NCBI RefSeq assembly: GCF_013299165.1
Contig: NZ_JAAFKD010000006.1
Span: 1 to 64,000 of the forward strand
From: Microcoleus sp. bin38.metabat.b11b12b14.051
GTDB taxonomy: Bacteria; Cyanobacteriota; Cyanobacteriia; Cyanobacteriales; Microcoleaceae
Direction: 5' to 3'
DNA length: 64,000 bases
The translations under genes and the position numbers were made by a program. The notes beneath the pieces are model-generated. The model was not told the origin of the DNA and ran no database searches. It saw nothing but the letters and a program-made list of their open reading frames with translations. This document shows positions 3,692-31,243 of the stretch, in pieces. How positions within the stretch are numbered: position 1 is the stretch's first letter; each line of letters opens with the position of its first letter.

Positions 3692-3753
3692 CTGATGAAA
3701 AGATTAGGGAAACCAGGTTAAAAAAGATGACCCCGATAAATATATGAGCGGTT

Positions 3754-4936: not shown

Positions 4937-5003
4937 TCAGTTGACAGTTGACGGTTGACAGTTATCAGTTGTCAGTTGACAGTTGTCAGTTGACAGTTAT
5001 CAG
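4930..5003 (+). repeat. Heptanucleotide repeat (ACAGTTG family)
   Basis: About nine 7-bp units (CAGTTGA/CAGTTAT/CAGTTGT) begin exactly at the txlA stop codon. Same family as the repeat after ubiX at 798-986. Confidence 0.85.
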
Positions 5004-5070
5004 AAGGACAGGACAATCTAAGGGCGGGGTAGGAACAATGCCCCCCATAATAAAGTTTATTTGTTGTTGT

Positions 5071-5093
5071 GGAACAGGCATCTTGCCTGTTCC
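5071..5093. repeat. Perfect 10-bp palindrome with 3-base loop
   Basis: GGAACAGGCA at 5071-5080 and TGCCTGTTCC at 5084-5093 pair perfectly. It lies in the 470-bp gap between txlA and the RND gene, which otherwise holds only the heptamer repeat, AT-rich sequence and an AAAATCT heptamer run just before the RND start. It lacks a following T run, so it is more likely a dispersed hairpin repeat than a terminator. Confidence 0.6.
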
Positions 5094-5407
5094 TATTTGT
5101 GATAACTTACAGAAACTCAACAGCCGATCGCAATTTATGCCAATTTCGGTTGAGGGCGACTACCTCTAAAGGAATATTCAAAAATAAATAATTATTTTTT
5201 ATTAAAACTTATTATAATTGCAAAAAGCGCAGTGTAAATATTCGATCGATTGACAGTTGGCACAAGAGCCAGAAAAGTCGGTCGTTGGGTTGACAGCTAC
5301 TTATCCCTGTTGGCGAGAGGCTTTAAACCAATTATTTGTGGTAAACTTTTCAATCTCAAATCTTGAATCGCCAATCTAAAAATCTAAAATCTAAAATCTA
5401 AAATAGA

Positions 5408-14000: not shown

Positions 14001-14321
14001 TTTCAGCCAATTATTGAGTAAATAATCTTCAATGGTGCTTTCTCGTAAATCTGCCAGTCGAATACAAATCGGAAAATCTGGGGAATTTTTCGGCAACCGT
14101 TCCGCCAATTCTCCTAATAGCGTTGTTTTTCCCGCACCCGGTTCGCCAATAATCGCGATATGCTTGCCTTTTTCGGTGCGATTTTCGGCAATCACTTTCT
14201 GGAAAAAAGCATCATCTTTATAAGTTTGGACGATTTGCAGTTCTGGTTCTTTCTGGCGCGACTCTTCGCCTGTGGGGTTTGGTATGGGGTTTGGTGTTTT
14301 GGGACGTTCCATTAATCCCAA
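11031..14321 (-). CDS. NACHT NTPase with 11 HEAT-like repeats (possible defence protein)
   Basis: STAND-class NTPase of 1096 residues as drawn. The NACHT domain (about 50-390) has Walker A GEPGAGKTT (59-67), Walker B LLLDGVDEM (139-147) and the YHPTFQEYFAA winged-helix motif (372-382). Residues 511-895 are eleven 35-residue HEAT-like repeats built on KAIDALVQLLNSPN and VAESLGKIDPGNQ. The last 200 residues form a separate globular domain. Related bacterial NLR-like proteins sense phage, so defence is a plausible role, but no effector domain is recognised. The drawn start is a TTG; the frame stays open 50 codons further upstream, to the TGA of the 145-residue gene, and those codons look coding (VNWRDIC, YVPLGLMERP). 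The true protein may therefore include that N-terminus. Confidence 0.85.
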   Translation of the reverse strand: MGLMERPKTPNPIPNPTGEESRQKEPELQIVQTYKDDAFFQKVIAENRTEKGKHIAIIGEPGAGKTTLLGELAERLPKNSPDFPICIRLADLRESTIEDYLLNNWLKKALQFIDADAENVTPEIGKALKQLFSQGKVWLLLDGVDEMAAESPVQALAKIRDQLTDWVGKARVVLTCRLNVWDAAISNTLTNFETYKTLEFEPDDVDEFIHQWFEQASQDEKRRNSDNETSWHSQGKRLQQQLKAPGKERIRELVRNPLRLSMLCQSWCVAERDLPSTKAALYEQFTTYFFDWKKEEFQQKQRVLKETDKKQIQQALAKLALAAMESANRFRIEQEFAIGQMEEQWFDLADELGWLVLVDRDTRTKKPVYAFYHPTFQEYFAACAITDWHYFLDHQIPPVSDRYRIFERQWREVILLWLGRGEIEAKQKQEFIDALVNFEDGCGKWNSQDDVDKGFYEYRAYFLAAAAIAEFQDYSQIDEVIGQIVRWGFYNGDRVISNAAREALEQTQLPKAIDALVQLLNSPNLDDDTGREVAESLGRIDPGNQKAIDALVQLLISPDHTHYSHSIVRASLKKIGQGNQKAIDTLIQLLYSIDLSNNTRSLLAVSLGMIGQGNQKAIDALLQLLNSANLDDYIRRDVAESLGKIDPGNQKAINALVQLLNSPDIYNYDRLRVAESLGKIDPNNQKTIDTLVQLLNSPNLNADTRIRAPRILQIIGQANKTVSDDLAQLLNSSHLDDDIRSNVAESLGKIDPGNQKAINTLVQLLNSPHLDNDIRRYVTESLGKIGQGNQNAIDTLVQLLNYPNINYISIIEVIRSLGKIGQGNQNAIDTLVQLLNYPNLRIFTRSNVAESLGKIDPGNQKAINTFVQLLNSPNRCDTYIYIWTESLKNIQIDKPLTIIKALIAKLNNFQEINYDCYNLIWHYAQNLPYPDFYQAWHQDTLPNSPTASLNLANLPQILAEAINDRPDLCSKVKLICIDTHQFIEPENSALEIYDMMLNQNCPESQNGYPDTMQKLKLYWNSLRRQSEIPLFFICYDSTALSPTPTGFSAPFLKALSKFDRAICVVCEKADISLPTFSPSQPNLIAKIVAWISEMMA
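11637..12791 (-). repeat. 105-bp coding repeats (HEAT array) inside the NACHT gene
   Basis: Eleven consecutive 105-bp units encode the HEAT-like array. Similarity is visible at DNA level: the segment TTGAGCAGTTGCAC recurs at about 105-base spacing and several neighbours (for example the units around 11820 and 11925) are nearly identical over tens of bases. This indicates recent duplication or homogenisation, so copy number may vary between strains. Confidence 0.85.
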
Positions 14322-14471
14322 GGGAACGTAAATATTTAATTCATATTGTTGTGCTGTTGCTTGGCGGCGGAGTTGTTGAGTTTCTATAACTTTGTTGCAG
14401 ATATCGCGCCAGTTAACTTCGATAGTCTCGGTGAGATTCGATTTTTCCCCGTTCTCAAAGGACGGAGGCAG

Positions 14472-14909
14472 TCAGAAGTTGTTAGTCTGGTTCTGGATAT
14501 TACCTTGATTGATAACTCCCTTTTCTTGCAACTTCGACCAGTTCAGGTTTTGGATGGATGGTTGTTGGGACTGGAGCTTTTTCATTTCCAATTGGATATA
14601 TTCGGCAAGTCTGGGATTTGGATCTGCCTGTGCTGCTGCTAGCAATTGGATTAATATTTGTTTGAATTCGTCATTTCGATCGGCTACTGATTGCACTTCC
14701 AGGATTGCTTGACCGTAATCTAAAGGTTGCTCAGGCACAAGTTCGATCGCACTCGCCGTATCTGGAGACTCGTGTTTGAGCACTGACCGGAATTTTTGAA
14801 CCGATTGAGTCAACGCATCTCCAAGGTTTTCTCCAATTTTTTCCAAAGCTTTTGTTCCTAATACGGTTGCCATCGCAGTTCCAGCAGCCGTCAGCGCCAA
14901 AGGTTCCAT
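14472..14909 (-). CDS. N-terminal module of the NACHT protein, cut off by an in-frame TGA
   Basis: 145-residue product starting MEPLALTAAGTAMATVLG, a hydrophobic Ala/Gly-rich helix, followed by helical segments and ending in INQGNIQNQTNNF. From memory, the same module forms the N-terminus of cyanobacterial NACHT/STAND proteins, ahead of a TETIEVNWRDIC linker. Here that linker follows in the same reading frame after the TGA stop (14472-14474) and continues without another stop into the NACHT gene. This is either a small separate subunit or the first exon-like part of a gene carrying one nonsense codon. A good ATG start lies at 14909; about 240 gene-free bases precede it. Confidence 0.7.
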   Translation of the reverse strand: MEPLALTAAGTAMATVLGTKALEKIGENLGDALTQSVQKFRSVLKHESPDTASAIELVPEQPLDYGQAILEVQSVADRNDEFKQILIQLLAAAQADPNPRLAEYIQLEMKKLQSQQPSIQNLNWSKLQEKGVINQGNIQNQTNNF

Positions 14910-15150
14910 AAATTATGAGTAGGAGTTTTCATGGTTTGTAAATTTATAACATAATTTTTGTATAAATGCAAAGCTGCACATTTTCGTTGAGATACTGCTG
15001 CGACTAGGCGAGAAACTAAAACAAACTTTAATCAGATCGCACAATTGTTGATGTAGTCTTAGAGAATTTCAAAACCACAGCAAAAAGGGGAAATTGAATT
15101 TAACTCAACTTCCCCATCTTGACAAACGTCGTATTTTCTGAACTTATTTC

Positions 15151-16397: not shown

Positions 16398-16883
16398 ATG
16401 TTAATGTTGCTCTTTTATGTAGGGGACGATCGCTATGCCTTGGATAGCAGGCGAGTAGTCGAAGTAGTGCCCACTGTCACCTTGAAAAAACTGCACAACG
16501 CACCGGAATACATTTCCGGCTTGTTTAACTACCGGGGACATCTCGTCCCGGTGATCGACTTGTGCCAAATGCTACAGGGGACGGCGGCCCGCGCTTACTT
16601 GAGCACGCGCATCGTCTTAGTCAATTGCCAGTTTCCCGATACTTCTGAGGGGAACGGTGGCAGTTTGCGCGGCCCCCTAATTTTAGGGCTGATGGCGGAA
16701 AGGGTGACAGAAACTCTCGACAAACCAGAAACCGAATTTGTTAGTCCCGGCATTAAGATTGACAGCACTCCTTATTTGGGAGAAATGATTGCAGACGATC
16801 GCGGTATGATTCAATTTGTCAGGGTAGAACATCTGCTGCCGGAATCCCAAAAAACTTATTTGCTTCCCCAACAGGAAGGTTGA
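16398..16883 (+). CDS. cheW: CheW-like scaffold protein (WspB-like)
   Basis: 161-residue single CheW domain that couples chemoreceptors to the CheA kinase. It has the expected N-terminal strand MLLFYVGDDRYALDS, the ISGLFNYRGHLVPVIDL motif (about 39-55), typical of the receptor-binding groove, and a C-terminal strand pair. First gene of the chemosensory cluster and, by position, the equivalent of Pseudomonas WspB. The start ATG at 16398 gives a normal N-terminus; MLMLL is strongly hydrophobic but is strand 1, not a signal. The TGA stop lies in the first unit of an ACAGTTG repeat. The gap to cheR (411 bases) is filled with repeats and a MITE. Confidence 0.9.
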   Translation: MLMLLFYVGDDRYALDSRRVVEVVPTVTLKKLHNAPEYISGLFNYRGHLVPVIDLCQMLQGTAARAYLSTRIVLVNCQFPDTSEGNGGSLRGPLILGLMAERVTETLDKPETEFVSPGIKIDSTPYLGEMIADDRGMIQFVRVEHLLPESQKTYLLPQQEG

Positions 16884-16995
16884 CAGTTGACAGTTGACAG
16901 TAGACAGTTGACAGTTGACAGTAGTCATGGGTAATGGGTAATTGATAATTGGTAGTTGGTAGTTGGTAGTTGGCAATTGGTAATTGGTAATTGTG
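16879..16995 (+). repeat. Heptanucleotide repeats (GTTGACA and TGGTAGT families)
   Basis: GTTGACA units begin at the cheW stop codon (16881), then change near 16926 into TAATGGG/TAATTGG/TGGTAGT units of similar size. Two heptamer families are thus joined end to end. Confidence 0.8.
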
Positions 16996-17029
16996 GGCAG
17001 GTCCGAAAGTTGATAACTACGATATTAAC

Positions 17030-17165
17030 CAATACGGTTTACTTAAGGCTTTTTGAGGAATTTCTTAAGTCAACCATATTATGGTAGGGGTGGGTTTAGC
17101 TAACAATCTATGAAATAATTGACTGTATTAAGGCAAAACCCGCCCAATACAAGTAAACCGTATTG
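17030..17165. mobile_element. MITE-like element with perfect 15-bp inverted ends and 10-bp target duplication
   Basis: 136-bp element. CAATACGGTTTACTT (17030-17044) and AAGTAAACCGTATTG (17151-17165) are perfect inverted repeats. The 10-mer CGATATTAAC occurs immediately outside both ends (17020-17029 and 17166-17175), as expected of a target-site duplication. The interior has no ORF, so it is non-autonomous and would have been moved by a transposase encoded elsewhere. It separates cheW from cheR. Confidence 0.85.
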
Positions 17166-17194
17166 CGATATTAACGCATTAGCTAAAGGTAGCT

Positions 17195-17265
17195 GTCAAC
17201 AGTCAACAGTCAACAGTCAACAGTCAACAGTCAACAGTCAACAGTCAACAGTCAACAGTCAACAG
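17195..17265 (+). repeat. Ten copies of heptamer GTCAACA
   Basis: A nearly pure (GTCAACA)n run ending about 30 bases before the cheR start. It differs by one base from the reverse complement of the GTTGACA family found after cheW. Confidence 0.9.
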
Positions 17266-17294
17266 AATGAACGCAAATCTACGAGCTAAAATCA

Positions 17295-18620
17295 ATGATA
17301 CAAGCAGCAATTGAAGCTCTACTCAGACAAAAAATTGGTTTGGATGCCCTGACTATTGGTTCTAATACAATTACTAGAGCCGTGAACCGTCGGATGGCAG
17401 ATTGCGGTTTGACTGATATAAATATTTACTTGGCAAAACTGCAAACATCCCCTCCAGAATTGGAAGAATTAATCGAAAGTGTCGTGATACCGGAAACTTG
17501 GTTTTTTCGCGATCGCGAACCTTTTGTTTTTTTGAGCCGCCACGTGCTTTCAGAATGGTTGCCCAAAAATCCCGGCAAAACCCTGCGCGTGTTGAGCCTT
17601 CCTTGCTCGACGGGGGAGGAACCTTACTCGATCGCGATCGCCCTACTCGAAGCTGGTTTAAATCCGAGCGACTTCAGCATCGATGCGGCAGATATCAGCA
17701 AAGTTGCTCTCAAAAAAGCGGCTCGCGGAGTTTATGGCAAAAACTCTTTCCGCGACAAAAACTTGGATTTTCGCGATCGCTATTTTACTCCGCTGGCGGG
17801 AGACCTTTATCAGTTGAATGACTCAGTGAGACGGAAAGTTAATTTTATTCAGGGAAACATTCTAGACAGCTATTTTTTAGTTGGTCAAATTCCTTACGAT
17901 GCAATTTTTTGCCGCAACGTGTTAATTTACTTTGATAGTGCAGGCAGAAGTCAGACTGTGCAACTTTTAAATCGGTTGTTGAAACCAGCAGGAATCTTGT
18001 TTTTAGGTCACTCGGAAAGCGGGCAAAAACTGCCTCCTCAATTTGTTTCGGTGCGTCACTCCCTAGCATTTGCTTACCGCAAAACCGAAATTCCCCAGAA
18101 TCAAGGCGAGGTAAAACAACAGGCGACTAACATCAATCATTCACGGCTAATTCGGGAGTTGAAACGCACAGAAAATAGGGATAAAGCCCCGATTTGGCAG
18201 TGGCCAAGTGTGAGCGGTAAATCCTCTGCTTCCCAGGAAAAATATCCGAGAGAGGGCGATAATTCGCAGGTTTTGCCAATTCGGACGATCGCCCCGACAC
18301 CAGCTCCTGCTAAGCCTGCTAGTGCCGATTTAGACGCAGCACGCCGCGCAGCCGATCGCGGACAATTGCAGGAAGCCGCCAAACTGTGCGAAACTTACCT
18401 CAGTCAAAATCCCACGAATGCTGATGCTTACGTCTTATTGGGGCAAGTTTACCAAGCAACGGGCGATCGCCAACAAGCTGAGCAATATTTCCAAAAAGCA
18501 ACTTACCTCAAACCGGATCACTATCAAGGGCTAATTCACCTGGCTTTGCTCAGAGAAGAGCGAGGAGATATTGCCGGTGCTGCGATCGTCCGCCAGCGCA
18601 TTCAGCGAATCGAAAAATAG
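17295..18620 (+). CDS. cheR: CheR methyltransferase with C-terminal TPRs (WspC-like)
   Basis: 441-residue chemoreceptor glutamate methyltransferase using SAM. The N-terminal all-helical CheR domain (about 1-75) ends in ETWFFRD. The catalytic domain (about 76-270) carries the SAM loop LSLPCSTGEEPYS (100-112) and the FCRNVLIYFD motif (205-214). After a Pro/Ala linker (about 330-342), residues 345-435 form tetratricopeptide repeats (AYVLLGQVYQATGD, AEQYFQKATYL). The CheR-TPR fusion is characteristic of WspC and other non-flagellar chemosensory systems. It is followed 29 bases later by the first MCP gene, consistent with one transcript. Confidence 0.93.
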   Translation: MIQAAIEALLRQKIGLDALTIGSNTITRAVNRRMADCGLTDINIYLAKLQTSPPELEELIESVVIPETWFFRDREPFVFLSRHVLSEWLPKNPGKTLRVLSLPCSTGEEPYSIAIALLEAGLNPSDFSIDAADISKVALKKAARGVYGKNSFRDKNLDFRDRYFTPLAGDLYQLNDSVRRKVNFIQGNILDSYFLVGQIPYDAIFCRNVLIYFDSAGRSQTVQLLNRLLKPAGILFLGHSESGQKLPPQFVSVRHSLAFAYRKTEIPQNQGEVKQQATNINHSRLIRELKRTENRDKAPIWQWPSVSGKSSASQEKYPREGDNSQVLPIRTIAPTPAPAKPASADLDAARRAADRGQLQEAAKLCETYLSQNPTNADAYVLLGQVYQATGDRQQAEQYFQKATYLKPDHYQGLIHLALLREERGDIAGAAIVRQRIQRIEK

Positions 18621-18649
18621 CCCGATAAGTAATAACTGAGAACCGAAGC

Positions 18650-20404
18650 ATGGACAACATTTTTAAGCATATGACTTTGCAAAGACGCATGATCGCTGCG
18701 TTTGTGTTCATGGGGGCGATCGTGCTGGTAGTGGCTTTAGTCGGCGCCAGCGGTAATTTTCGGCTATCTGCACACCTAGAGTCGCTCGCCAACAACGCTT
18801 ATCCGAGCACCGTAGCTTTGTGGAAAATCAACGAAGGACAAACACAGGTGCAGTCTTCCGATAGAATGCTGCTCAACGAAGCAATCAATGCTGACCAAAG
18901 ACGCCGAGAAATCGCCAGAATAAATAAGGCTTGGCAGCAGATAAATCAAGGTTTTAAAGAGTACGAAAAACTGCCGCGCGATGAAGATGAAGAAAAAATT
19001 TATCAAGAATTTAAACCGCTGTGGCAAAGGTGGGCTGATGCTCACAAACAATTCCAACAACTAAATATAGAATATGAAAAAGTAGGAATTATTAACCCCA
19101 GACAAATCCAAATTGATTTGCTAGAAAAAGGTCAAAATAAGTCACCAGAATTAGCAACTGCTAGAGCAGCAGTCGAGGTGCTTAACAGAATGAACGAAAA
19201 AGCGTTTAATGAGAAAATAACTACATTTCAAGCTGCGACAGAGGGAATGGTAGAACTCCTCAACTACAATCGCAAATTAGCAGCAGATTCGGCAAAATTA
19301 GCCGCAGAGGATATCACTCAAACTCGGTTCTGGGTGCTTTTAGGCACGCTGCTGGGCCCTTTGACGGCTGTAGTGTTTGGACTGTACTTTAGCAATACGA
19401 TCGCCAAACCGTTAGGCGCTAAAATTGCTGGAGTTGTGGATGTAGCCGAGAAAATGTCGATCGGCGATTTGACTTCTGAAGTTCATGTCAGCGAAACCAA
19501 AGACGAAATCAGCAAATTGCAGAACTCATTCCGCAGCATGAATCGGGGTTTAGCCGCATTAATCAAGCAAGTGCAAACATCGGGAATTCAAATCACTTCA
19601 TCAGCCACCCAAATAGCAGCTTCTGGCAAACAATTAGAAGCCACAGTCAACCAACAAGCAGCATCCACAAACGAAGTTGTAGCTACTGCCAAAGAAATCG
19701 CCTCCACCAGCGGTAAACTCGTAAAAACAATGGATGAAGTTTCGCACATGGCAGAGTCAACTGCCCGCGAAGCTGGCTCCGGTCAAAAAGAGTTAGGTCG
19801 CATGGAAAATACTATGAAACTATTGGGAAATTCCACCAACTCTATCTCTAACAAACTTGGAATAATTAGCGAAAAAGCTAACAATATCAACAGCATAGTT
19901 ACCACAATTACTAAAGTAGCAGATCAAACTAATTTACTTTCTTTAAACGCAGCCATAGAAGCTGAAAAAGCCGGAGAATACGGCATGGGTTTTGCCGTCG
20001 TCGCCCGCGAAATTCGCCGCCTCGCCGACCAAACAGCCGTGGCAACTTTAGATATTGAAAACATGGTAAAAGAAATGCAGTCAGCCGTTTCTACTGGGGT
20101 GATGGAAATGGATAAATTCTCCCATGAAGTCAGCCGGGGGATGGAAGATATTCGCAACATCGGCGTGCAATTAGCCGAAATTATTCAGCAAGTACAATCT
20201 CTCACTCCCCGCTTCGATTCGGTAAATCGAGGTATGGAAGCTCAATCAGAAGGAGCTCAGCAAATTAGCGAAACGATGGCCCAGTTGGCTGAAACTTCCC
20301 TGCAAACTGCTGATGCTTTGCGGGAAATTAATAGTGCGATCGCGCTTTTGAACGAAGCAGCCCAAGGGATGCGTCACGAAATTTCTCGATTCAAAGTCAG
20401 TTGA
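18650..20404 (+). CDS. Methyl-accepting chemotaxis protein 1 (4HB-HAMP-MCP, WspA-like)
   Basis: 584-residue transmembrane receptor: TM1 (about 13-32), a periplasmic four-helix-bundle type sensor (33-226), TM2 (228-248), HAMP (250-303) and a cytoplasmic signalling coiled coil with the hairpin tip around [20 protein letters not shown]. The tip sequence is that of standard MCPs and should bind CheW and CheA. This is the full-length member of a pair: its sensor, TM2 and signalling domains are clearly paralogous to the third receptor at 22266-23858. The ligand cannot be predicted. In Wsp systems the receptor WspA responds to surface contact. Confidence 0.92.
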   Translation: MDNIFKHMTLQRRMIAAFVFMGAIVLVVALVGASGNFRLSAHLESLANNAYPSTVALWKINEGQTQVQSSDRMLLNEAINADQRRREIARINKAWQQINQGFKEYEKLPRDEDEEKIYQEFKPLWQRWADAHKQFQQLNIEYEKVGIINPRQIQIDLLEKGQNKSPELATARAAVEVLNRMNEKAFNEKITTFQAATEGMVELLNYNRKLAADSAKLAAEDITQTRFWVLLGTLLGPLTAVVFGLYFSNTIAKPLGAKIAGVVDVAEKMSIGDLTSEVHVSETKDEISKLQNSFRSMNRGLAALIKQVQTSGIQITSSATQIAASGKQLEATVNQQAASTNEVVATAKEIASTSGKLVKTMDEVSHMAESTAREAGSGQKELGRMENTMKLLGNSTNSISNKLGIISEKANNINSIVTTITKVADQTNLLSLNAAIEAEKAGEYGMGFAVVAREIRRLADQTAVATLDIENMVKEMQSAVSTGVMEMDKFSHEVSRGMEDIRNIGVQLAEIIQQVQSLTPRFDSVNRGMEAQSEGAQQISETMAQLAETSLQTADALREINSAIALLNEAAQGMRHEISRFKVS

Positions 20405-20638
20405 GCGTTACTCGTAACCCAAGATTCGTCAGGATCGAACAATCTCAAATCACAAATTTTAAACCTCTAATGTTATCATATGATATTCAATAAATTAACC
20501 CTAGTAAAAACTGTTGGTAGTCAGGACTTCATTCCTCAGGATCGGCAGAGTGAAACCCTCACTACAAATAATTTGATGTGGGTTATTTTATGCACATAAT
20601 ATCGGCTCTTGCTAGCGCCAAAAGGAGATGTAATTTAA

Positions 20639-22264
20639 GTGCAGAAAAAATTAACTATTAAACAAATTTTGTGGAGGGGAATCGGCACAATTTTTATGTT
20701 AATATTTATAGCTAACATTGTCGCACAGCAAACTCAAAATACTTTAGTTAAGTCTTTAGACAACGTTACTTTGAGCTATAAAATTTTGCAAGAATTGGCA
20801 GAGTTAGATATGCTCCTCCTGGAGGCTGAAACCGGGCAGCGCGGTTATCTGTACACGGGAAAAGAGAATTTTTTAGACCCCTATAATAAAGCAAATGCCA
20901 GCATCAACGTGCAAGTAGCAAAGTTGAAAGAGAAGATTAGAAACCCAAAACAGCAACAAAAACTCGGTGAACTCCAAACCCTGATTAGAGAAAGAATAGA
21001 TTATTTAGAAAAAACTATTCAACTCCGCAAATCAGGTCGAGAACAGGAGGTAAAAAAAATAGTAAGCGCTGGAACGGGACTGAAGATTATGGCAAAGCTG
21101 AGGGGAAAAATTACAGAAATTAAGGAAGCAGAAAATCAATTATTGGATAACAGGAAGAAATTAGGTCGGGAATCTGAGATTTTTTCAACTTACTTTGCTG
21201 GGGCCAGCACTGTGATGATTGTGGGAGTTGGTGCGTTAATTTCTTGGATAATTATCCGGAACATTGCCCAATCTTTGGGAATAGCAGTAAAAGTTGCAGA
21301 AGAGGTATCGGCGGGAAATTTAACTACCAAGATTTCCGCAAGTTATCAGGGAGAAATTGGCAAATTGCTCGCCGGATTTCAAAGCATGAGTCACAACCTA
21401 AATTCTTTGATAGGGCAAGTGCAGAATTCGGCAATTCAAGTAACAGCTTCGTCTCAGGAAATTTCCGCATCTGGAAAACAATTAGAAGCGACTGTGACAG
21501 AACAAGCAGCTTCGATTATAGATGTAAAAAATACTACCAAAAATATTGCTTATACTTCTCGGGAACTGAAGCAGACAATTGAGGAAATTACTTTTACATT
21601 CCAAACTACAACCATAGCTGCTGAGGGCGGGCGGCGTAATTTAAGCCAGATGGAAAATACCATGCGGGATTTAGCAACTGCTACGAGTTCTATTTCTAGC
21701 CAACTAACTAACATCAGTGAAAAAGCTAACAATATTAGCAGAATTATTCTGACGATAACTAAAGTTGCTGACCAAACTAATTTACTGTCTTTGAATGCTG
21801 CAATCGAAGCCGAAAAAGCGGGAAAATATGGTAGCGGTTTTGCCGTAGTTGCCCTAGAAATTAGGCGCCTCGCCGATCAAACTGCTGTTGCTACTTTGGA
21901 TATAGAAAAAATGGTTAAAGAAATGCAGGCAGCAGTTTCGAGTGGGGTGACGGAAATGAATAGTTTTACTGAAGAAGTAAATGATAGCGTTGAGGATGTC
22001 GCAAGTGTGAGCTGGCAACTGACTGAAATTATCGAGCAGGTGCAAGCTATCACTCCGCGTTTTGAAGTTGTAAATCAGGGTATGGAGGCTCAGTCAGCAG
22101 GAGCTCAGCAAATTAGCGAGGTGATGGTGTATCTGAGTGAATCATCGTCGCAAACGGCGGACGCATTGCGCGAAATTAACGGGGCTATCTCTCAATTAAA
22201 TGACGCATCTCAAGGTCTGCATCAAGAAATATCTCGGTTTAAAGTAAGCAGTAAGGAATCGTAA
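20639..22264 (+). CDS. Methyl-accepting chemotaxis protein 2 (CHASE3-HAMP-MCP)
   Basis: 541 residues: TM1 (about 12-30), a periplasmic CHASE3-type helical sensor (about 35-175) with the tell-tale [12 protein letters not shown] motif (63-74), TM2 (184-206), HAMP (about 207-260) and a signalling coiled coil with the same [20 protein letters not shown] tip as its neighbours. The start is GTG at 20639, supported by an AAGGAG Shine-Dalgarno about 12 bases upstream; no better ATG fits the N-terminus. CHASE3 differs from the sensor of MCP1 and MCP3, so the cluster can sample at least two inputs. The 234-base space before it has no gene and may hold a promoter. Confidence 0.9.
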
Positions 22265-22265
22265 A

Positions 22266-23858
22266 ATGTTTAAAAATATCAGTTTCAAACAGCGGATAAA
22301 TGCTGCATTTATCTTTCTAGCAGTGATTGTTTTAGCAGTGTCCTCTATCGGTTGGATGGGGAATTATCAGCTCGGCGGACATATTGATACGCTAGCTAAT
22401 AATTCCCTGCCGAGTATTAGTGGCTTGTGGAAAGTTAATGAAGGACAAACACAAATTGAGTCCTCGGAACGGGCTTTGCTGGATCTGGAACTCTCCCCAG
22501 ACGAAAGAAAAACTGAGTTGACGAGAATCCAGAAAGCTTGGGAGCAGATTAATGATGGTTTTAAAGAGTACGAAAACACGCCCCGGAGTACGGATGAAGA
22601 TAAATTGTACAAACAATTGCAGGAAAAATGGGATATTTGGAAGAAAAATCATCAAGCTTTTTTAGATTATAATAAAAAATTTGATAGTTTGGGAATTGCC
22701 AACCCATTTAAAAGGCAGATTGAGCTGATAAGCCAAGGTAATACCAAATCGCCCGAGCTTGATGCTGCTAGAAGGGCTGGCGCGTTTTACAATCAATTGA
22801 GCGATCGCGCAAAAGGGAATCGCCCCTCCTTTGAAGCAGCTACTAACTTAATTTTGGAAGACCTCAAAATTAATGAAGCTACCGCACAACTAGCTAAACA
22901 GGAGTCAAAAAACGATATTAGTCAAACCACTTTTTGGGTAATTGTTGGCACGATCCTCGGGCCGCTAACAGCGGGACTGTTTGGACTGTTCCTCACGGGT
23001 GCGGTATCCCAAACTCTGGAAAATCAAATAGATATGTCCGGTATCAAAATTAGCGGTTCTACTAATCAAATTGCTGCTTCTGGTAAGGAATTGGAAGCGA
23101 CGATGAACCAACAAGTCGCCTCGACTAACGAAGTGGTAGCTACCGCTAGAGAAATTGCTGCTACTGCTATGCAACTGGCGAGGACAATGGATGAAGTTTC
23201 CCAGATGTCCCACCAAGCTGCTCAATCGGCTGGTGGTGGTAAACAAGAAATTGGTCGCATGGAGTCCACGATGAATAAATTAGCAGATTCTACCAGTGCT
23301 ATTTCTGGTAAATTGGGAGTTATTAGCGAAAAAGCTAATAATATTAACAGTATTATCACGACGATTACGAAGGTGGCGGATCAAACTAATTTGCTTTCGC
23401 TCAACGCGGCTATTGAAGCGGAAAAAGCGGGTGAGTATGGGTTGGGTTTTGCAGTTGTTGCGAGGGAAATTCGGCGGCTGGCAGATCAAACGGCGGTGGC
23501 TACTTTGGATATTGAAAATATGGTTAAAGAAATGCAGTCTGCTGTGGGTGTTGGTGTGATGGAAATGGATAAGTTTACTAATGAGGTGCGCCGGGGGGTG
23601 GAAGATGTGCAAACTATTAGTTTGCAGTTGGAGTCGATTATTCAGCGGGTGGAAGCTTTAACTCCGCGTTTTGAAGAGGTGAATGAGGGGATGGACGCGC
23701 AGTCTCAGGGAGCTCAGCAAATTAGTGAGGCGATGGTGCAGTTGAGTGAGGCTTCTTCGCAAACTGCGTCGGCACTGCGGGATATCAATGGGGCGATCGG
23801 GCAAGTTAACGATGCTACACTTGGTTTGCGTCACGAAATGCTAGCGTTTTTAAAGTAA
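22266..23858 (+). CDS. Methyl-accepting chemotaxis protein 3, lacking HAMP
   Basis: 530-residue paralog of MCP1. TM1 (about 13-31), periplasmic four-helix-type sensor with the same WKVNEGQTQIESSERALL core, and TM2 (223-245) are all present. Right after TM2 the sequence passes from GAVSQTLENQIDMSG (245-259) into the signalling coil (NQIAASGKELEAT), omitting roughly 55 residues that form the HAMP domain in MCP1. The tip [20 protein letters not shown] is intact. The ATG starts 1 base after the stop of MCP2, so they are co-transcribed. The deletion is a clean in-frame loss and should change signal transmission between membrane and kinase. Confidence 0.9.
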   Translation: MFKNISFKQRINAAFIFLAVIVLAVSSIGWMGNYQLGGHIDTLANNSLPSISGLWKVNEGQTQIESSERALLDLELSPDERKTELTRIQKAWEQINDGFKEYENTPRSTDEDKLYKQLQEKWDIWKKNHQAFLDYNKKFDSLGIANPFKRQIELISQGNTKSPELDAARRAGAFYNQLSDRAKGNRPSFEAATNLILEDLKINEATAQLAKQESKNDISQTTFWVIVGTILGPLTAGLFGLFLTGAVSQTLENQIDMSGIKISGSTNQIAASGKELEATMNQQVASTNEVVATAREIAATAMQLARTMDEVSQMSHQAAQSAGGGKQEIGRMESTMNKLADSTSAISGKLGVISEKANNINSIITTITKVADQTNLLSLNAAIEAEKAGEYGLGFAVVAREIRRLADQTAVATLDIENMVKEMQSAVGVGVMEMDKFTNEVRRGVEDVQTISLQLESIIQRVEALTPRFEEVNEGMDAQSQGAQQISEAMVQLSEASSQTASALRDINGAIGQVNDATLGLRHEMLAFLK

Positions 23859-24023
23859 ATAGGGAGTGGGCTACTCAACTCGATTTGTTAAAATAATAAC
23901 AGGTGTAGCCAGGATAAATCTCAAATTGAATCTTTTTTATAATAGGAGCATATCTGAATAAAATCTAAAATCTAGCAGCTAAAAACTAAAATCTAAAAAC
24001 TAAAATCTAAAATCTAAAATCGA

Positions 24024-24692
24024 ATGACTGATGATTGCTGGAATCGGATCGGAGTTGGGGGCGATCGCACTTGTCCCGAATTAAAAAGATTTATTCACTG
24101 TCGTAACTGTCCTGTGTATTCCGACGCGGGCCGCAGTTTGCTAGAACAGGAATTGCCCGCAGGATATCTGGAAGAGTGGACTAATTTATTGCGATCGAGC
24201 CAAGGAGTAACTAACGCCGTTACCGCTGCGGGTACTGTGTCTGTAGGTATTTTTAGGTTGAACGGCGAATGGCTGGCTTTACCCGCCCAACTTTTTAAAG
24301 AAGTGACGCAGATATCTGTCATTCACACTGTGCCGCACCGCAGCAATAATATATTTATTGGTTTGGTGAATATTCGGGGTGAAATCCAGTTGTGTATTTC
24401 GCTAAAAGCACTTTTGGGATTGGAAGCAGCAGATGCTAGCAGACAAAATATTAGTCCTGTTGTTTACCAACGGATGGTAGTTGTTGAGAGAGAAGGTAGT
24501 CGCTGGGTGTTTGAGGTAGATGAAATTTATGGGATTCACCGCATTCTGCCGGAGCAAATCAAAAATGTCCCGGCTACTGTTTCTAAAGTGCCAGAAACTT
24601 ATACTAAAGGGATTATAAGTTGGCAGGGGCAAAGTGTTTGTTATCTGGATGATGATTTGCTGTTTTATACCTTAACTAAAAAGATTATCTGA
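24024..24692 (+). CDS. CheW-like protein with Cys-rich N-terminus (WspD-like)
   Basis: 222-residue CheW-domain protein, the second scaffold of the cluster. The N-terminal 35 residues contain DDCWNRIGVGGDRTCPEL and FIHCRNCPVYS, placing cysteines at 5, 17, 26 and 29. As I recall, the WspD family has an almost identical N-terminal motif. The CheW core (about 70-220) includes FIGLVNIRGEIQLCISL and EVDEIYGIHRI. The cysteine cluster could bind a metal or Fe-S centre, or mediate a redox contact; this is not established. The gene sits between the MCPs and cheA, the same order as in wspABCDEF. It is preceded by an AAAATCT heptamer run. Confidence 0.9.
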   Translation: MTDDCWNRIGVGGDRTCPELKRFIHCRNCPVYSDAGRSLLEQELPAGYLEEWTNLLRSSQGVTNAVTAAGTVSVGIFRLNGEWLALPAQLFKEVTQISVIHTVPHRSNNIFIGLVNIRGEIQLCISLKALLGLEAADASRQNISPVVYQRMVVVEREGSRWVFEVDEIYGIHRILPEQIKNVPATVSKVPETYTKGIISWQGQSVCYLDDDLLFYTLTKKII

Positions 24693-24870
24693 TGCAAAAC
24701 CTGGCGAATGGAATTCGTTTTTACACACATAAAATCTGGCGAATGGAATCGGGCGAATGGAATTCGCGTCTACACAGGCGAAACCCGGATTGCCAAGGAT
24801 TGAAGAAGACCGGGCGAATGGAATTCGCGTCTACACAAACACTCACGCGCATTGCCAAGGGTTGAAATAA
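24693..24870 (+). repeat. Dispersed repeat with GGGCGAATGGAATTCGCG units
   Basis: Four degenerate copies of GCGAATGGAATTCG(CG)TCTACACA, some followed by ATTGCCAAGG(A/G)TTGAA, fill the space between the WspD-like gene and cheA. The GCGAATGGAATTCGC core is itself an inverted repeat. Confidence 0.75.
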
Positions 24871-24888
24871 ATTAAGGATTAATAAAAA

Positions 24889-27800
24889 ATGAGCAATCAA
24901 GATATGAGCAATTTCTCCATGATGGATTTATTTCGCATGGAGGCGGACACCCAAGTAGGAATATTAAATGAGAACATTCTGTTACTGGAAAATAACCCGA
25001 GTTCTCCTGCTGAATTGGAATCTTTGATGCGTGCTGCTCACTCGCTTAAAGGCGCGGCGCGGATTGTGGGACTGGATGCTGCTGTGCGAATCGCTCACGT
25101 GATGGAGGATTGCTTTGTGGCGGCGCAGGCTGGATCGATCGCCCTAGACTCACCTGATAAGATTGATGTGATGCTGCGGGCGATCGACCTTTTGGCCCAA
25201 ATCAGCCAGATCCCGGAAACCGAGATCGAAAATTGGCTTCCGGTTAATCTATCGCAAATTGAAACCTTAGAAACTGCTATTTTAGCAATTATCAATAACG
25301 AACAATTAGATTTTAACAGCGGATATGAAGCAGAAAAAATAGAAATACCTATGATTTTGGCTAGCGATAATCCGCTAGAGTCATCATCGGAAAATTATCT
25401 TGTTTTTACCGAAACAACAACAAATTCCGCACAACTAAATTCAGATATTCATCAAGAAATATTGCCAGAATTGCCGTCTGTTGAAACTCCGGAAACTCGG
25501 CTGCTAAAAACTGATTTGTCGATGTTGGCTTTATTTTCAGGAGAAGTAGAAACTCAATCAATTCTGTTAAAGCAAACTTTGCTATCGCTCAAAAATAACC
25601 CCAATGAATACTTAGACTTGGACTCCCTCGTCAAATCCGCTCATTTAATTAAGGGTGCTGGTAGAATAGTTCATTTTAATGAAATCGTTAAACTTGCTAA
25701 GGCGATAGAAAATACATTTCTGGGACTTCAGAAGCACAAAGCTAGCTTAAATGAAAGTCAAATTGACAGCCTGCTTGTCGGAGTAAATATCCTGGTAAAT
25801 ATGCAGGAAATTCCGGCGCTGGAGATCGAAAATTGGCTTGCCCAACGAGACGGAGAAATAGATCAGATTGTGGCCGCGATCGCTCTCATTACCCAAGCAG
25901 CTCAAACTCAGCACCCAGCAATTACCTCGGCAGTTACCTCACAAAAATCGGCAGAGCTAACGAGTTCTCCAACAACGCCCGTACCGCCGCCACCGATATC
26001 TAAAAATGCTCCGTCGGCACCTACGAAAAATAGCGGTAAAACTTCTGCAAATGGCGATTTACAAGCAATAAATGTAGATCGACGCCAGACTAAAATTGCT
26101 AGCGGACAACCTTCAAGTTCAGATATTAGAGAAAACGCTCAAAAGGCGAAAGCGGCAGACCGCGTAGTGCGAGTAAATGCGGAAAATTTAAATCGGATTA
26201 TGGGTTTGGCGGGCGAATCTTTAGTAGAAGCAAAATGGTTGCAACCGTTTGCTGATTCATTGTTGAAACTGAGAGCAAATCAAGGGCAATTGTATAGTTT
26301 GTTGGAGAAATTGCAGGAATCTTTAAGCGATTCTGTCCTGGATCAGCGCTCGGAAGATTATCTGGGGAGTGCTCGCAAAAAAGCTAACGATTGCCGCCAT
26401 ATTTTGTCCGATCGCCTCAACGAACTAGAACTGTTTGCGCGCCGTTCGGCAAATTTGTCTGACCGCTTGTACCGAGAGGTGATTGCTAGTAATATGAGAC
26501 CGTTTGCCGACGGCGTGCAACCTTTTCCGCGAATGCTGAGAGATTTGGCGAGACAGTTGGGCAAACAAGTGAAATTTGAAGTGCTGGGCAAATCTACTCA
26601 GGTCGATCGAGATATTTTAGAAAAATTAGAAGCACCGCTGACGCACATTTTACGCAATGCTCTCGATCACGGTATCGAGGCTCCTGAAGCTCGTTTAGCT
26701 GCGGGAAAACCTGCCGAAGGTACGATCAGGATGGAAGCAGCACACCGCGGCGGGATGCTGTCAATTACCGTCTCGGATGACGGTAAGGGAATAGAATCGG
26801 AAAACCTGCGCCAAAAAATTGTGACTAAGGGGATGGTGAGTGCGGAAATAGCGGCGAATTTGACTGAACCGGAACTGATGGATTTTTTGTTTTTGCCGGG
26901 ATTTTCTACTGCTAGTCAAGTTACGGAAATTTCGGGGCGCGGCGTGGGCTTGGATATTGTGCAAAGCATGGTGCAGGAGGTTGGCGGCATTCTGCGAGCG
27001 ACATCTTTGCCGGGAAAAGGTATGAATTTTCATTTGCAGTTGCCGCTAACTCTGTCGGTAATTCGGACGCTGTTGGTGGAAATTTCGGGGGAACCTTATG
27101 CTTTTCCGCTGACTCGGATCGATCGCATTGTGATGGTTGACTCTGCTGAGATTGCGATCGCCGAAAACCGACAGTATTTTACTCTTGACAACCAAAACAT
27201 TGGTTTGGTGACGGGTTATCAAGTGTTGCAGTTACCGCCGCCCGATCGCAAGTTGGATTTGCTGCCGGTGATCGTGATTAGCGATCGATCTAGCAGTTAC
27301 GGTTTGGCTGTAGACAAGTTTCTAGGGGAACGCGATTTAGTTGTCAGGCCTTTAGATCCGCGTTTGGGTAAGGTAGCGGATATCAGCGCCGCTGCTTTTA
27401 TGGAAGACGGTGCGCCGGTGCTGATTATCGATGTTGAGGATTTGGTGCGATCGACTGATAAGCTGCTGACTGAAACTCGGTTGCAAAAAGTTAGTCAAAC
27501 TGCACAAACTGCTGAATCAAAAAATCGCAAGCGCGTTTTGGTCGTAGATGATTCGATTACAGTCCGAGAAGTAGAGCGAAAACTTTTAGAAAATCAAGGG
27601 TATGAAGTTGAAATAGCTGTTAATGGTATGGACGGTTGGAATGCTTTGCGAACGGGGCAGTTTGATTTGGTAATCAGCGATGTTGATATGCCGCGGATGA
27701 CGGGAATTGAACTGGTAAGTCAAATTAAAAATCATTCGGGTTTAAAGTCGATTCCGGTGATTATTGTTTCTTACAAAGACCGCGAAGAAGATAGAATCAG

Positions 27801-27897
27801 AGGTTTGGAAGTGGGAGCAGATTATTATTTGACTAAAAGCAGCTTTCATGACGATACACTGTTAAATGCGGTAGTTGATTTAATCGGTGAGGCTTGA
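24889..27897 (+). CDS. cheA: CheA hybrid kinase, two Hpt domains and C-terminal receiver (WspE-like)
   Basis: 1002-residue chemotaxis kinase. Hpt1 (about 10-130) carries AAHSLKGAARIV with His51. A second Hpt (about 210-335) has SAHLIKGAGRIV with His252. A Pro/Ser-rich linker (340-420) follows, then dimerisation helices (425-560), the HATPase (N box HILRNALDHG at 586-595, G1 DDGKGIES at 630-637, G2 GRGVGLDIVQ), a CheW domain (about 720-855) and a C-terminal receiver (880-1000) with acidic pair VVDDS and phosphoacceptor Asp931 in ISDVDMP. CheA-REC is the WspE architecture; the second Hpt is extra. No stand-alone CheY is in the cluster, so phosphate should pass to the fused REC, CheB and the cyclase REC. 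Confidence 0.93.
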   Translation: MSNQDMSNFSMMDLFRMEADTQVGILNENILLLENNPSSPAELESLMRAAHSLKGAARIVGLDAAVRIAHVMEDCFVAAQAGSIALDSPDKIDVMLRAIDLLAQISQIPETEIENWLPVNLSQIETLETAILAIINNEQLDFNSGYEAEKIEIPMILASDNPLESSSENYLVFTETTTNSAQLNSDIHQEILPELPSVETPETRLLKTDLSMLALFSGEVETQSILLKQTLLSLKNNPNEYLDLDSLVKSAHLIKGAGRIVHFNEIVKLAKAIENTFLGLQKHKASLNESQIDSLLVGVNILVNMQEIPALEIENWLAQRDGEIDQIVAAIALITQAAQTQHPAITSAVTSQKSAELTSSPTTPVPPPPISKNAPSAPTKNSGKTSANGDLQAINVDRRQTKIASGQPSSSDIRENAQKAKAADRVVRVNAENLNRIMGLAGESLVEAKWLQPFADSLLKLRANQGQLYSLLEKLQESLSDSVLDQRSEDYLGSARKKANDCRHILSDRLNELELFARRSANLSDRLYREVIASNMRPFADGVQPFPRMLRDLARQLGKQVKFEVLGKSTQVDRDILEKLEAPLTHILRNALDHGIEAPEARLAAGKPAEGTIRMEAAHRGGMLSITVSDDGKGIESENLRQKIVTKGMVSAEIAANLTEPELMDFLFLPGFSTASQVTEISGRGVGLDIVQSMVQEVGGILRATSLPGKGMNFHLQLPLTLSVIRTLLVEISGEPYAFPLTRIDRIVMVDSAEIAIAENRQYFTLDNQNIGLVTGYQVLQLPPPDRKLDLLPVIVISDRSSSYGLAVDKFLGERDLVVRPLDPRLGKVADISAAAFMEDGAPVLIIDVEDLVRSTDKLLTETRLQKVSQTAQTAESKNRKRVLVVDDSITVREVERKLLENQGYEVEIAVNGMDGWNALRTGQFDLVISDVDMPRMTGIELVSQIKNHSGLKSIPVIIVSYKDREEDRIRGLEVGADYYLTKSSFHDDTLLNAVVDLIGEA

Positions 27898-27965
27898 AAA
27901 GAAATATAGGGTTAACTTTTTTAATGAACACATAAAAATGAGCTAAAAATGTGGTAGGAATATTA

Positions 27966-28399
27966 GTAGGGTGCGTCAGCCTGCGTAATTTGCTCGATAA
28001 TTGAGAAGCTGTTTGCTGACGCACCCTACAAGTAGTAGTAGGGTGCGTCAGCCTGCGTAATTTGCTCGATAATTGAGAAGTTGTTTGCTGACGCACCCTA
28101 CAAGTAGTAGTAGTAGGGTGCGTCAGCCTGCGTAATTTGCTCGATAATTGAGAAGTTGTTTGCTGACGCACCCTACAAGTAGTAGTAGGGTGCGTCAGCC
28201 TGCGTAATTTGCTCGATAATTGAGAAGTTGTTTGCTGACGAACCCTACAAGTAGTAGTAGGGTGCGTCAGCCTGCGTAATTTGCTCGATAATTGAGAAGC
28301 TGTTTGCTGACGCACCCTACAAGTAGTAGTAGTAGGGTGCGTCAGCCTGCGTAATTTGCTCGATAATTGAGAAGCTGTTTGCTGACGAACCCTACAAGT
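27966..28399. repeat. Six tandem 72/75-bp hairpin units between cheA and cheB
   Basis: Units start at 27966, 28038, 28113, 28185, 28257 and 28332. Each is a hairpin: GTAGGGTGCGTCAGC, about 35 bases, then GCTGACGCACCCTAC. Spacing alternates between 72 and 75 through an extra TAG in the linker. Two units have a C-to-A change in the right arm (GACGAACCC). No unique spacers occur, so this is not CRISPR. Long hairpins between cheA and cheB could reduce cheB expression or stabilise the upstream mRNA. The minus-strand 160-codon frame here is repeat-derived. Confidence 0.93.
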
Positions 28400-28478
28400 T
28401 TTGTTTTAAATAAAATTCCGCAAAAAAAACTGGCTCGGCAGGCTCCGATAACGACCCGCAACCGAAAATTAATCAGCT

Positions 28479-29498
28479 ATGAAAAATTTCAACATGAAAA
28501 TAGCGATCGTCAACGACACGCTGATTGCTGCTGAAGCCTTGCGCCGAGTTTTGGTAACAGTACCCGAGTATGAAATTGTTTGGATAGCTGGCGACGGGGC
28601 TGATGCTGTGTCGAAGTGCGCCCGCAATACCCCGGATTTGATTTTGATGGATTTGATCATGCCGGTGATGGATGGCGTTGAGGCGACGCGCCTGATTATG
28701 AAGCAATCTCCCTGTGCGATTCTGTTGGTGACATCTTCGGTAACAGGTAATGCGGGCAGGGTTTTTGAAGCTATGGGATATGGGGCTTTGGATGCTATTA
28801 ATACGCCGATTTTGGGGTTGATGGGCAATTCCCCAAGCGGTGGTGCGGAGCTATTAAAAACTATTTCTAAAGTCGCTAGGTTGATTGGCAAAACTAACTC
28901 GACTTCTATATTTCAGAGCGCTACTCCAAAATGCTTGACTCCGCCGCTGTTGGCGATCGGCTCTTCGACTGGCGGGCCGCAAGCTTTGGCAACTCTGCTA
29001 TCGGGTTTACCGCCAAATTTATCGGCCGCGGTGGCGATCGTCCAACACGTAGATGCTGAGTTTGCTCCTGGTTTGGCAGATTGGCTGAGTCAGAAAACTA
29101 ATTTGTCGGTGGGTGTCGCAGTTGCCGATCGACCTTTGGAAGTCGGTAAGGTGGTAATTGCCGCGACTAACGACCACTTAGTATTACAATCTAATTTAAC
29201 ACTTAAGTATACGAAGGAACCTTTAGACTATCCTTACCGCCCCTCAGTAGACACTTTTTTTCAAAGTGTCGCCCAACACTGGCCGGGTAAAGGGGTGGCA
29301 GTGCTGTTAACCGGCATGGGCAAAGACGGCGCTAAAGGGCTCAAGGTTTTACGAGCGGCCGGCTGGCACACGATCGCTCAAGACCGCGCTAGCTCAGTAG
29401 TTTACGGGATGCCGAAAGCGGCGGCCGAATTGAACGCGGCGGTGCAGGTTTTGTCGGTGGAGGCGATCGCTCCAGCCTGTCTCAAATATTTAGTCTAG
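28479..29498 (+). CDS. cheB: CheB protein-glutamate methylesterase (WspF-like)
   Basis: 339-residue CheB: an N-terminal receiver (about 6-125, phosphoacceptor Asp58 in LILMDLIMP) and a C-terminal methylesterase (about 150-339) with the catalytic triad visible as Ser163 (IGSSTGG), His190 (AIVQHVD) and Asp283 (GMGKDGAKG). It removes receptor methyl groups, resetting sensitivity. The drawn start is the first ATG; the second, at residue 6 (MKIAIVND), is the more usual N-terminus. It follows the 434-bp hairpin array and is the last core chemosensory gene. In Pseudomonas, loss of its WspF counterpart locks the system on. Confidence 0.93.
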
Positions 29499-29911
29499 AA
29501 AATACTAGAGATGTTTGGGCCATAAGGCTTAGGGTCTTAAGCATAATGGCCGGTGGCACGCAACACTTTCACTTAAGATAATTTACCTACGGGGTGATGA
29601 TTTGGCAATTTGATTGCGGTTTGTATGTTGCAGCAATCCGTAGGTGTACGGGCAATGCTGCGGGTACCGGCCACCAGGGAGCCAGCAGCAGCCGGGGAGC
29701 CAAAAATTGGCGATCGCAGCCCTTGCAATTAATTTCAAGCGTGCTAGGCTGTGTAAAGATTTTGCAAAAATGACCCGGTAACATTTTACAAACCTAGTAT
29801 TATCACCTGGTAAGCGTACTTAAATAACACCGGAGTCGTTATTGGTATTGACAAAATTTTCAAGTAAAAGTTTTTATCCTCTCCAGACAATGGCCGTTGC
29901 CCGATCTAGTT
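29499..29911 (+). promoter_or_regulatory. Untranslated gap between cheB and the cyclase gene
   Basis: About 400 bases with no supported ORF. It holds an imperfect inverted pair (ATGGCCGGTGG near 29545 and TACCGGCCACCA near 29667). I see no riboswitch match. It may contain a separate cyclase promoter, which bears on whether the cyclase belongs to the chemosensory transcript. Confidence 0.35.
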
Positions 29912-31243
29912 ATGAACTTAACTCACTCTCAGGCTATTGAATTCGATCGCATTCATACAGTAAATCAACGAGAAATCCCTGAATTCAACGGCAACGTGGT
30001 AAAGTTGAAATTTGAGGATAAGGGAAACAATGGAAAAAAGGCAGTTACAGCGCGAGATAGCGCCATTGTCAGTAACATCAACTTAGAGAGAAGCCTCCAT
30101 TCTATTGACTTAAATTTACCCTTCAATTCAGAAACAAAAAAAATATCCAGCTTGACCCAATCCACTGTCACAGTTTTACTGGTTGACGATCAGGAAATGA
30201 TCGGCGAAGCAGTGCGCCGAATGCTAGCCAGTGAAAAAGATATTAAATTTTATTACTGTAACGATCCCGCCCAAGCAATTAATAAAGCATTAGAGGTGAA
30301 GCCAACAGTCATCCTCCAAGATTTAGTAATGCCAGAAATAGATGGATTGCAGTTGCTGCGATTTTTTCGAGCGAATTCGCTGACGCGAGACATTCCGATG
30401 ATCGTCCTCTCCAGTAAAGAAGAAGCGGAACTTAAAGCGCAAGCCTTCTCCTTGGGTGCTAACGATTATTTAGTAAAATTGCCCGATCGAGTGGAACTCA
30501 TAGCTAGAATCCGCTATCACTCCAAAGCTTATATGCACCTGTTGGAAAGGAATCTGGCATATCAAACTATGCAGGATTATTTAGAGAAATTAGAGATAGA
30601 ACAAAAAAAATCCCAAGAGTTGCTGCTAAATATATTGCCAGAGGCGATCGCCGAAAGATTAAAAAAAGAACAAGGAATAATCGCCGACGAATTTGCAGCA
30701 GTCAGCGTCATGTTTGCCGATATTGTGGGCTTCACTCAGTTGTCAGCATCAATATCGCCGAAAGACTTAGTACATTTGCTCAACGATATATTTTCCAAGT
30801 TCGACGAACTCGCCCAAAAGCACGGTTTAGAAAAAATTAAGACAATTGGTGACTCTTATATGGTAGTAGCCGGACTGCCAAATCCGCGAGAGGATCATGG
30901 AGATGCGATCGCCGAAATGGCGCTAGATATGCAAGAAGCTATCAGTACATACAGAGAAAAGCTCGGCATCAGTCTCAGCATCCGCATCGGCATTCATTCC
31001 GGGCCAGTGGTAGCCGGAATCATCGGTACAAAAAAGTTTATTTACGATTTGTGGGGCGATACGGTAAATACCGCTTCTCGGATGGAATCTCACGGTATCC
31101 CGGACGGAATTCAGATTACGGAAGCAACTTACTTGCTCATAGAAAATAAGTATGACTTTGAAAAACGCGGTTTAATTAGTGTTAAAGGTAAGGGCCAAAT
31201 GGCTGCTTATTTGTTGAAAGGAAGATTGGAAGTTGATTTTTAA
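29912..31243 (+). CDS. Receiver domain fused to class III adenylate cyclase
   Basis: About 443 residues from ATG 29912 (an in-frame TTG at 29897 adds five; numbering below uses that longer form). An unassigned N-terminus (1-88) precedes a receiver (90-212; VDDQE, phosphoacceptor Asp142 in LQDLVMP), a coiled-coil linker (215-245) and a class III cyclase domain (265-440). Metal aspartates are Asp275 (MFADIVGFT) and Asp319 (KTIGDSYMV). Specificity residues are Lys315 and Asp384 (IYDLWGDTVN), the ATP-selecting pair, where guanylate cyclases use Glu/Cys. Asn391 and Arg395 complete the site. The product should be cAMP, switched by REC phosphorylation. It occupies the position of WspR (REC-GGDEF) in Wsp systems. 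A link to the upstream CheA is inferred from position. Confidence 0.9.
   Translation: MNLTHSQAIEFDRIHTVNQREIPEFNGNVVKLKFEDKGNNGKKAVTARDSAIVSNINLERSLHSIDLNLPFNSETKKISSLTQSTVTVLLVDDQEMIGEAVRRMLASEKDIKFYYCNDPAQAINKALEVKPTVILQDLVMPEIDGLQLLRFFRANSLTRDIPMIVLSSKEEAELKAQAFSLGANDYLVKLPDRVELIARIRYHSKAYMHLLERNLAYQTMQDYLEKLEIEQKKSQELLLNILPEAIAERLKKEQGIIADEFAAVSVMFADIVGFTQLSASISPKDLVHLLNDIFSKFDELAQKHGLEKIKTIGDSYMVVAGLPNPREDHGDAIAEMALDMQEAISTYREKLGISLSIRIGIHSGPVVAGIIGTKKFIYDLWGDTVNTASRMESHGIPDGIQITEATYLLIENKYDFEKRGLISVKGKGQMAAYLLKGRLEVDF

Follow-up and report, generated by a model that had tools for sequence, protein, structure and literature searches.

The Wsp chemosensory system is the textbook surface-sensing route to cyclic di-GMP (c-di-GMP). 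Which second messenger, and which output, should be expected of a Wsp-like gene block that ends with a class III cyclase gene? Such a block is found at positions 16398-31243 of the window, a stretch of 64,000 nucleotides from Microcoleus sp. bin38.metabat.b11b12b14.051 (contig NZ_JAAFKD010000006.1). Its last gene joins a receiver (REC) domain to a cyclase domain. In our judgement this is probably a Wsp-type array whose CheA drives a WspR-type receiver-cyclase to make cyclic AMP (cAMP). Since its output domain is Guanylate_cyc rather than GGDEF, the system counts as a Wsp-type array with a different output and not as a c-di-GMP Wsp system. Comparison with related loci places the cyclase among several outputs that have been exchanged repeatedly behind the same receiver family. 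At stake is the second messenger by which a mat-forming cyanobacterium passes on the input to its array.

An arrangement of this kind has been reported before. In Phormidesmis priestleyi BC1401 the WspR position is occupied by a class 3 adenylate cyclase (Christmas et al. 2016, PMC4971617), while Garcia-Fontana et al. 2012 (PMC3447774) include a mononucleotidyl cyclase among the response-regulator outputs of clusters whose cheR carries tetratricopeptide repeats (TPRs). The supplementary tables of the 2012 survey may include some of the clusters treated below. The mechanism proposed in an initial annotation of this DNA is plausible. That annotation was not aware of any description of a Wsp system with this output; given the earlier reports, the window is not the first case. 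The additions to prior reports are the WspR-type receiver, independent cyclase lineages, repeated output exchange and a linked channel in sister systems.

The gene block

The block consists of nine genes, all on one strand. Every open reading frame (ORF) is open at the coordinates given below, and the Pfam domains agree with the Wsp-like gene set of the initial annotation. MCP denotes a methyl-accepting chemotaxis protein.

16398..16883, + strand: cheW, wspB position (PF01584, E 4.3e-21)
17295..18620, + strand: cheR with C-terminal TPRs, wspC position (PF01739, E 2.4e-42; TPR models)
18650..20404, + strand: MCP with 4-helix-bundle sensor, wspA position (PF00015, PF12729)
20639..22264, + strand: MCP with CHASE3 sensor and HAMP (PF05227, PF00672, PF00015)
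22266..23858, + strand: MCP with 4-helix-bundle sensor, no HAMP match (PF00015, PF12729)
24024..24692, + strand: Cys-rich cheW, wspD type (PF01584, E 3.6e-21)
24889..27897, + strand: cheA hybrid kinase with C-terminal REC, wspE position (Hpt in two stretches, HATPase_c, CheW, Response_reg)
28479..29498, + strand: cheB, wspF position (REC and CheB_methylest; NCBIfam NF009206 above cut-off)
29897..31243, + strand: WspR-type receiver with a class III cyclase domain of predicted adenylate type (REC 93-206, Guanylate_cyc 264-442)

This is the Wsp gene set, with the receptors placed between wspC and wspD. It brings together features by which a Wsp block is recognised: CheR with TPRs, two CheW proteins, a CheA-REC hybrid, CheB and an MCP. 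In the Cys-rich CheW, a form that we take to be the WspD type, C5, C17, C26 and C29 are invariant among 17 aligned relatives. Its best-segment identity to the counterpart in Aromatoleum diolicum is 47%; in that cluster cheB is followed by a REC-GGDEF gene. NCBIfam gave no match for this protein and no Wsp-specific model overall.

The cyclase gene may start at TTG 29897 or at ATG 29912. The distance of 413 bases from cheB given in the initial annotation applies to the ATG; from the TTG it is 398 bases. The same annotation had noted the absence of CheY, and a reading by eye of the 21 ORFs of at least 100 amino acids between 14000 and 34000 likewise revealed no stand-alone CheY-like receiver gene. 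The Pfam scan of this region covered the nine cluster proteins and two neighbours.

The output protein

In a comparison with solved structures, residues 78-232 match WspR (3i5a, E 6.1e-53; 3bre, E 2.5e-52) much more strongly than PleD (1.8e-15). On this comparison the receiver belongs specifically to the WspR family, which, with the domain content, bears out the initial placement of the cyclase in the WspR slot of a Wsp-type array. D142 is kept in 99% of 168 receivers. Of 162 candidates in the genome itself, 13 were scored, and a single one falls into this family at E<=1e-25. An AlphaFold2 model built from a 28-row alignment has a mean pLDDT of 79 and a pTM of 0.58; residues 1-87 fall below 50 and are predicted to be disordered, and a single helix (198-246) connects receiver to cyclase. 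A Foldseek search with the model returned bacterial adenylyl cyclases first, and WspR across the whole length (3bre at rank 4, 3i5a at rank 11). The same receiver and cyclase make-up is also seen, at 56-65% identity, in proteins P0069, P0052 and P0091 (named Planctomycetes, Acidobacteriota).

The catalytic half matches Guanylate_cyc (PF00211) with an E value of 3.7e-65. The residues named in the initial annotation (D275, K315, D319, D384, N391 and R395) are exact in the 448-amino-acid reading, so that the two metal-binding Asp, the Lys/Asp pair for ATP, and the Asn and Arg of class III adenylate cyclases are all present. All six are kept in 17/17 window-type copies and in eight aligned paralogues of the same genome. 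The enzyme looks like one that would make cAMP from ATP.

More than one cyclase lineage occupies the slot. A single lineage was considered and rejected: the window type and the P. priestleyi type are split by a branch with support 99, which assigns them to different class III lineages. The genome has 37 class III cyclase matches, and the eight that were aligned group on the window side of this branch.

Conservation of the linkage

With so many class III cyclases in the genome, a chance neighbourhood was a fair worry. It is rejected on the conserved linkage and the WspR-type receiver. The initial annotation had proposed comparing cheB and the cyclase gene in relatives. Among the 16 genomes of the genus in our order sample, eight have WspD and seven the receiver; in all seven, cheB is followed at a distance of 386-430 bp by the receiver-cyclase gene. 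The eighth WspD genome (G255) has a WspD subtype without a WspR-type receiver in the fetched stretch.

Over 291 genomes of the order, WspD was found in 72 (E<=1e-20) and the receiver in 67 (E<=1e-25). Both are present in 63, WspD alone in 9, the receiver alone in 4 and neither in 215. This count left out 14 genomes with weak WspD matches (E 2e-13 to 7e-11, other CheW), and p-values throughout are uncorrected for relatedness. In two of the four receiver-alone genomes (G185 and G232) cheB still adjoins the receiver. In a wider sample of the class, the receiver occurs in 59 of 388 genomes. Linkage counts are minimum figures, as the fetched stretches are not equally long.

A WspD subtype with the order cheW-MCP-cheR-MCP-wspD-cheA-cheB occurs in Planktothrix and others (loci L072, L075-L077, L079, L081 and L094); no WspR-type receiver was seen in the fetched stretches of these loci.

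Exchange of outputs behind the receiver

We fetched 235 loci and labelled each gene with a WspR-type receiver by BLAST to exemplars. The labels were checked with Pfam for 14 output proteins and the window's own. Merging identical output proteins left 174 unique examples. Of 582 confirmed places in the named scan the best 80 were kept, with a bias to relatives of the window.

Behind cheB lie 124 of the 174. These include cyclases of the P. priestleyi type (41), the window type (16) and a third lineage (2), histidine kinases of a common type (36) and others (4), SpoIIE (16, L263 included), GGDEF (6) and PAS (1). Two are unlabelled: L046 is cut by a contig end and L136 is a receiver-only ORF of 128 amino acids. 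In the order and class samples together, class III cyclases are the commonest of the 92 cheB-linked outputs (50/92) and GGDEF is rare (3/92); these 92 are not deduplicated and the window's order is over-represented. Pseudanabaena biceps PCC 7429 carries GGDEF on a receiver 75% identical to that of the window. Adenylate cyclase as the output, the proposal of the initial annotation, agrees with the adenylate-type residues but is too narrow as a description, since several outputs are exchanged on the same receiver family.

On a tree of CheB plus WspD with 106 rows (4 of them non-cyanobacterial; rows without WspD or cheB, unlabelled rows and rows with short genes were left out), the output labels need 14 changes, and shuffled labels need 59 on average. 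Using supported branches only, there are at least 11 changes, where eight labels by themselves need seven; one of these changes is a single cluster (L105) bearing two outputs. The window falls inside a 12-row clade (support 100) consisting entirely of its own output type, while three more window-type rows (L056, L062 and L078) fall elsewhere.

A few cases bear on how the exchange may have occurred. The newest clear change is in Cuspidothrix issatschenkoi (L274), with SpoIIE within a cyclase clade. Since its receiver and its output are both similar to the SpoIIE lineage, replacement of the whole gene is the better fit here, and an in-frame domain swap as the general mode is not borne out. In L105 (genome G271, 4396-7662) one Wsp cluster has two tandem WspR-type receivers, 84% alike, one with HisKA-HATPase and further RECs and the other with SpoIIE; this fits exchange after duplication. 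The receiver tree (137 columns, 77 of 160 inner branches open) is too short to settle the mode. In a Stagnimonas (Pseudomonadota) record, L273, cheB is followed by a REC-GGDEF gene, and a gene for a WspR-type REC-class III cyclase stands upstream of the cluster on the opposite strand (2042-3238 and 13955-14998). A literature search that was light on subscription papers gave no account of outputs being exchanged repeatedly on one WspR-type receiver in cyanobacteria. A receiver family joined to so many outputs offers a natural experiment in the control of unrelated enzymes by a receiver.

A putative cyclic-nucleotide channel in sister systems

A gene encoding MscS channel domains with a C-terminal domain that binds cyclic nucleoside monophosphates (cNMP) occurs near 12 of 46 unique P. 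priestleyi-type outputs and near none of 128 others (p 4e-8). The domains were checked with Pfam in seven loci. Among loci with cheW and sufficient upstream sequence, 7/24 of the P. priestleyi type and 0/50 others have the gene immediately in front of cheW and in the same orientation. Counting any cNMP-binding ORF, and before the third lineage was split off, the figures are 17/48 and 0/126. Presumably this is the channel type known as bCNG. The association suggests that in P. priestleyi-type systems the array may act through cAMP on the channel, and the linked gene is a concrete candidate effector. No report of such a channel linked to a Wsp-type array was found in the literature searched, which covered few subscription papers. 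In the P. priestleyi genome, PMC4971617 names the gene 'a cyclic nucleotide binding protein'.

None of the 17 window-type outputs has the MscS-cNMP gene beside it. The window's own genome has two, located away from the cluster. Other loci show related genes. ORFs for cNMP binding are present at L060 and L110, two WspD loci outside the counts whose fetched stretches showed no WspR-type receiver, and the SpoIIE loci L135 and L276 have MscS-like neighbours without the cNMP-binding domain. Beside the P. priestleyi cluster (L265), a gene at 2533-4746 for a SulP transporter with STAS and cNMP-binding domains is divergent from the channel gene.

Comparison with known systems

The cluster of P. priestleyi BC1401 is among the known systems closest to that of the window. 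It has wspB, C, A, D, E and F in order followed by the class 3 adenylate cyclase (PMC4971617), and a receiver of the same family (65% identity). Its cyclase belongs to the other class III lineage and the MscS-cNMP gene is just upstream, whereas in the window there are three MCPs and a linked channel is absent. The Wsp system of Pseudomonas shares the array gene set and the WspR-type receiver, but its output is GGDEF rather than a class III cyclase. In Burkholderia cenocepacia (PMC8552884), wspR is also replaced by another output that is independent of c-di-GMP, although there this is a hybrid histidine kinase, WspH. Pseudomonas Pil-Chp (PMC12632253) resembles our proposal in that a chemosensory array raises cAMP through an adenylate cyclase. 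That cyclase, CyaB, is a protein of its own that acts downstream of PilG, which activates it, while in the window receiver and cyclase are one protein.

Proposed mechanism and alternatives

Gene content, conserved linkage, co-occurrence, the WspR-type receiver, the intact adenylate-type active site and the output exchange in relatives are computed results; for this organism we infer the phosphotransfer, the dimer-based activation, the cAMP product, the stimulus and any effector. Surface or envelope signals as the stimulus and pili or gliding as the target, both proposed in the initial annotation, would be hypothetical links of this scheme. The MCPs, coupled through the two CheW proteins, would control the CheA hybrid kinase, with CheR-TPR and CheB adapting the array. 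Phosphorylated CheA would phosphorylate D142 of the WspR-type receiver, which would pass the signal through the unbroken helix 198-246 to a dimer of class III catalytic domains, and this would make cAMP from ATP.

Several observations weigh against this scheme. Eight of the 16 genus genomes are without the array, and 9 of the 72 WspD genomes are without such a receiver (the contigs of two, G061 and G267, end before the slot). For fifty of the 174 unique receiver genes, cheB does not adjoin in the fetched stretch, in some cases because contigs end, so the receiver can exist apart from the array. These fifty comprise the common kinase (31 of 67), other kinases (8), P. priestleyi-type cyclases (5), SpoIIE (4), one window-type output and one unlabelled. 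The combination of receiver and cyclase also occurs in other phyla, possibly away from Wsp clusters, a cAMP effector linked to the window's cluster was looked for and not found, and the 398-bp gap between cheB and the cyclase would allow separate transcription.

The unlinked receivers and the gap are also what could be expected if the cyclase were a response regulator served mainly by another kinase, adjoining the array without taking its phosphate. The gap (29499-29896) contains blocks conserved in 12 relatives, immediately after cheB and some 150 bp ahead of the start of the cyclase gene, possibly a promoter or a small RNA. Around cheB and the cyclase, promoter-like sites do not exceed chance level, and a search for a terminator gave none. 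There are, in addition, many receivers and cyclases in the genome. We nevertheless regard service by another kinase as unlikely, given the linkage in every receiver-bearing genus genome, the co-occurrence of the gene families over 291 genomes and the WspR-type receiver. WspD clusters without a WspR-type receiver would also be consistent with a main output through other regulators, the cyclase being a minor or inactive branch. This we consider very unlikely: the receiver and the active-site residues are intact in every window-type copy and the place of the cyclase in the block is conserved. As to the product, class III substrate specificity depends on few residues, and the third lineage on the same receiver (L131 and L218) has E in place of K315 and S or G in place of D384, predicted from established class III knowledge to be of the guanylate cyclase type. 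None of the 17 window-type copies departs from K315 and D384, and synthesis of cyclic GMP (cGMP), or of both cyclic nucleotides, by this enzyme appears highly improbable. An array acting through CheA on a cAMP-producing receiver-cyclase is the reading we prefer.

A broader proposal is more tentative, and we think it rather doubtful as a whole. Cyanobacterial Wsp may be a fixed input chassis with a conserved WspR receiver family and an exchangeable enzyme (cAMP cyclase, putative cGMP cyclase, histidine kinase, Ser/Thr phosphatase or diguanylate cyclase), in which the cAMP of the cyclase versions would gate a dedicated MscS-family channel. If true, this would be a bacterial chain from chemoreceptor to adenylate cyclase to cyclic-nucleotide-gated channel, like animal olfactory transduction.

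Neighbouring genes and intergenic regions

The REC-cyclase gene closes the block. Downstream, on the opposite strand, are a C5-cytosine methylase gene and a gene that we take to be lpxB-like; each has relatives behind the cyclase in 9 of 15 other window-type loci, several of which are cut by contig ends. The divergent gene upstream of the block has a BON match slightly below cut-off and relatives in 5 of the 15. Between cheA and cheB (27961-28398) there are tandem hairpin units of 72-75 nucleotides (TAGGGTGCGTCAGC ... GCTGACGCACCCTA). In the relative L045, cheA and cheB are separated by merely about 23 bp.

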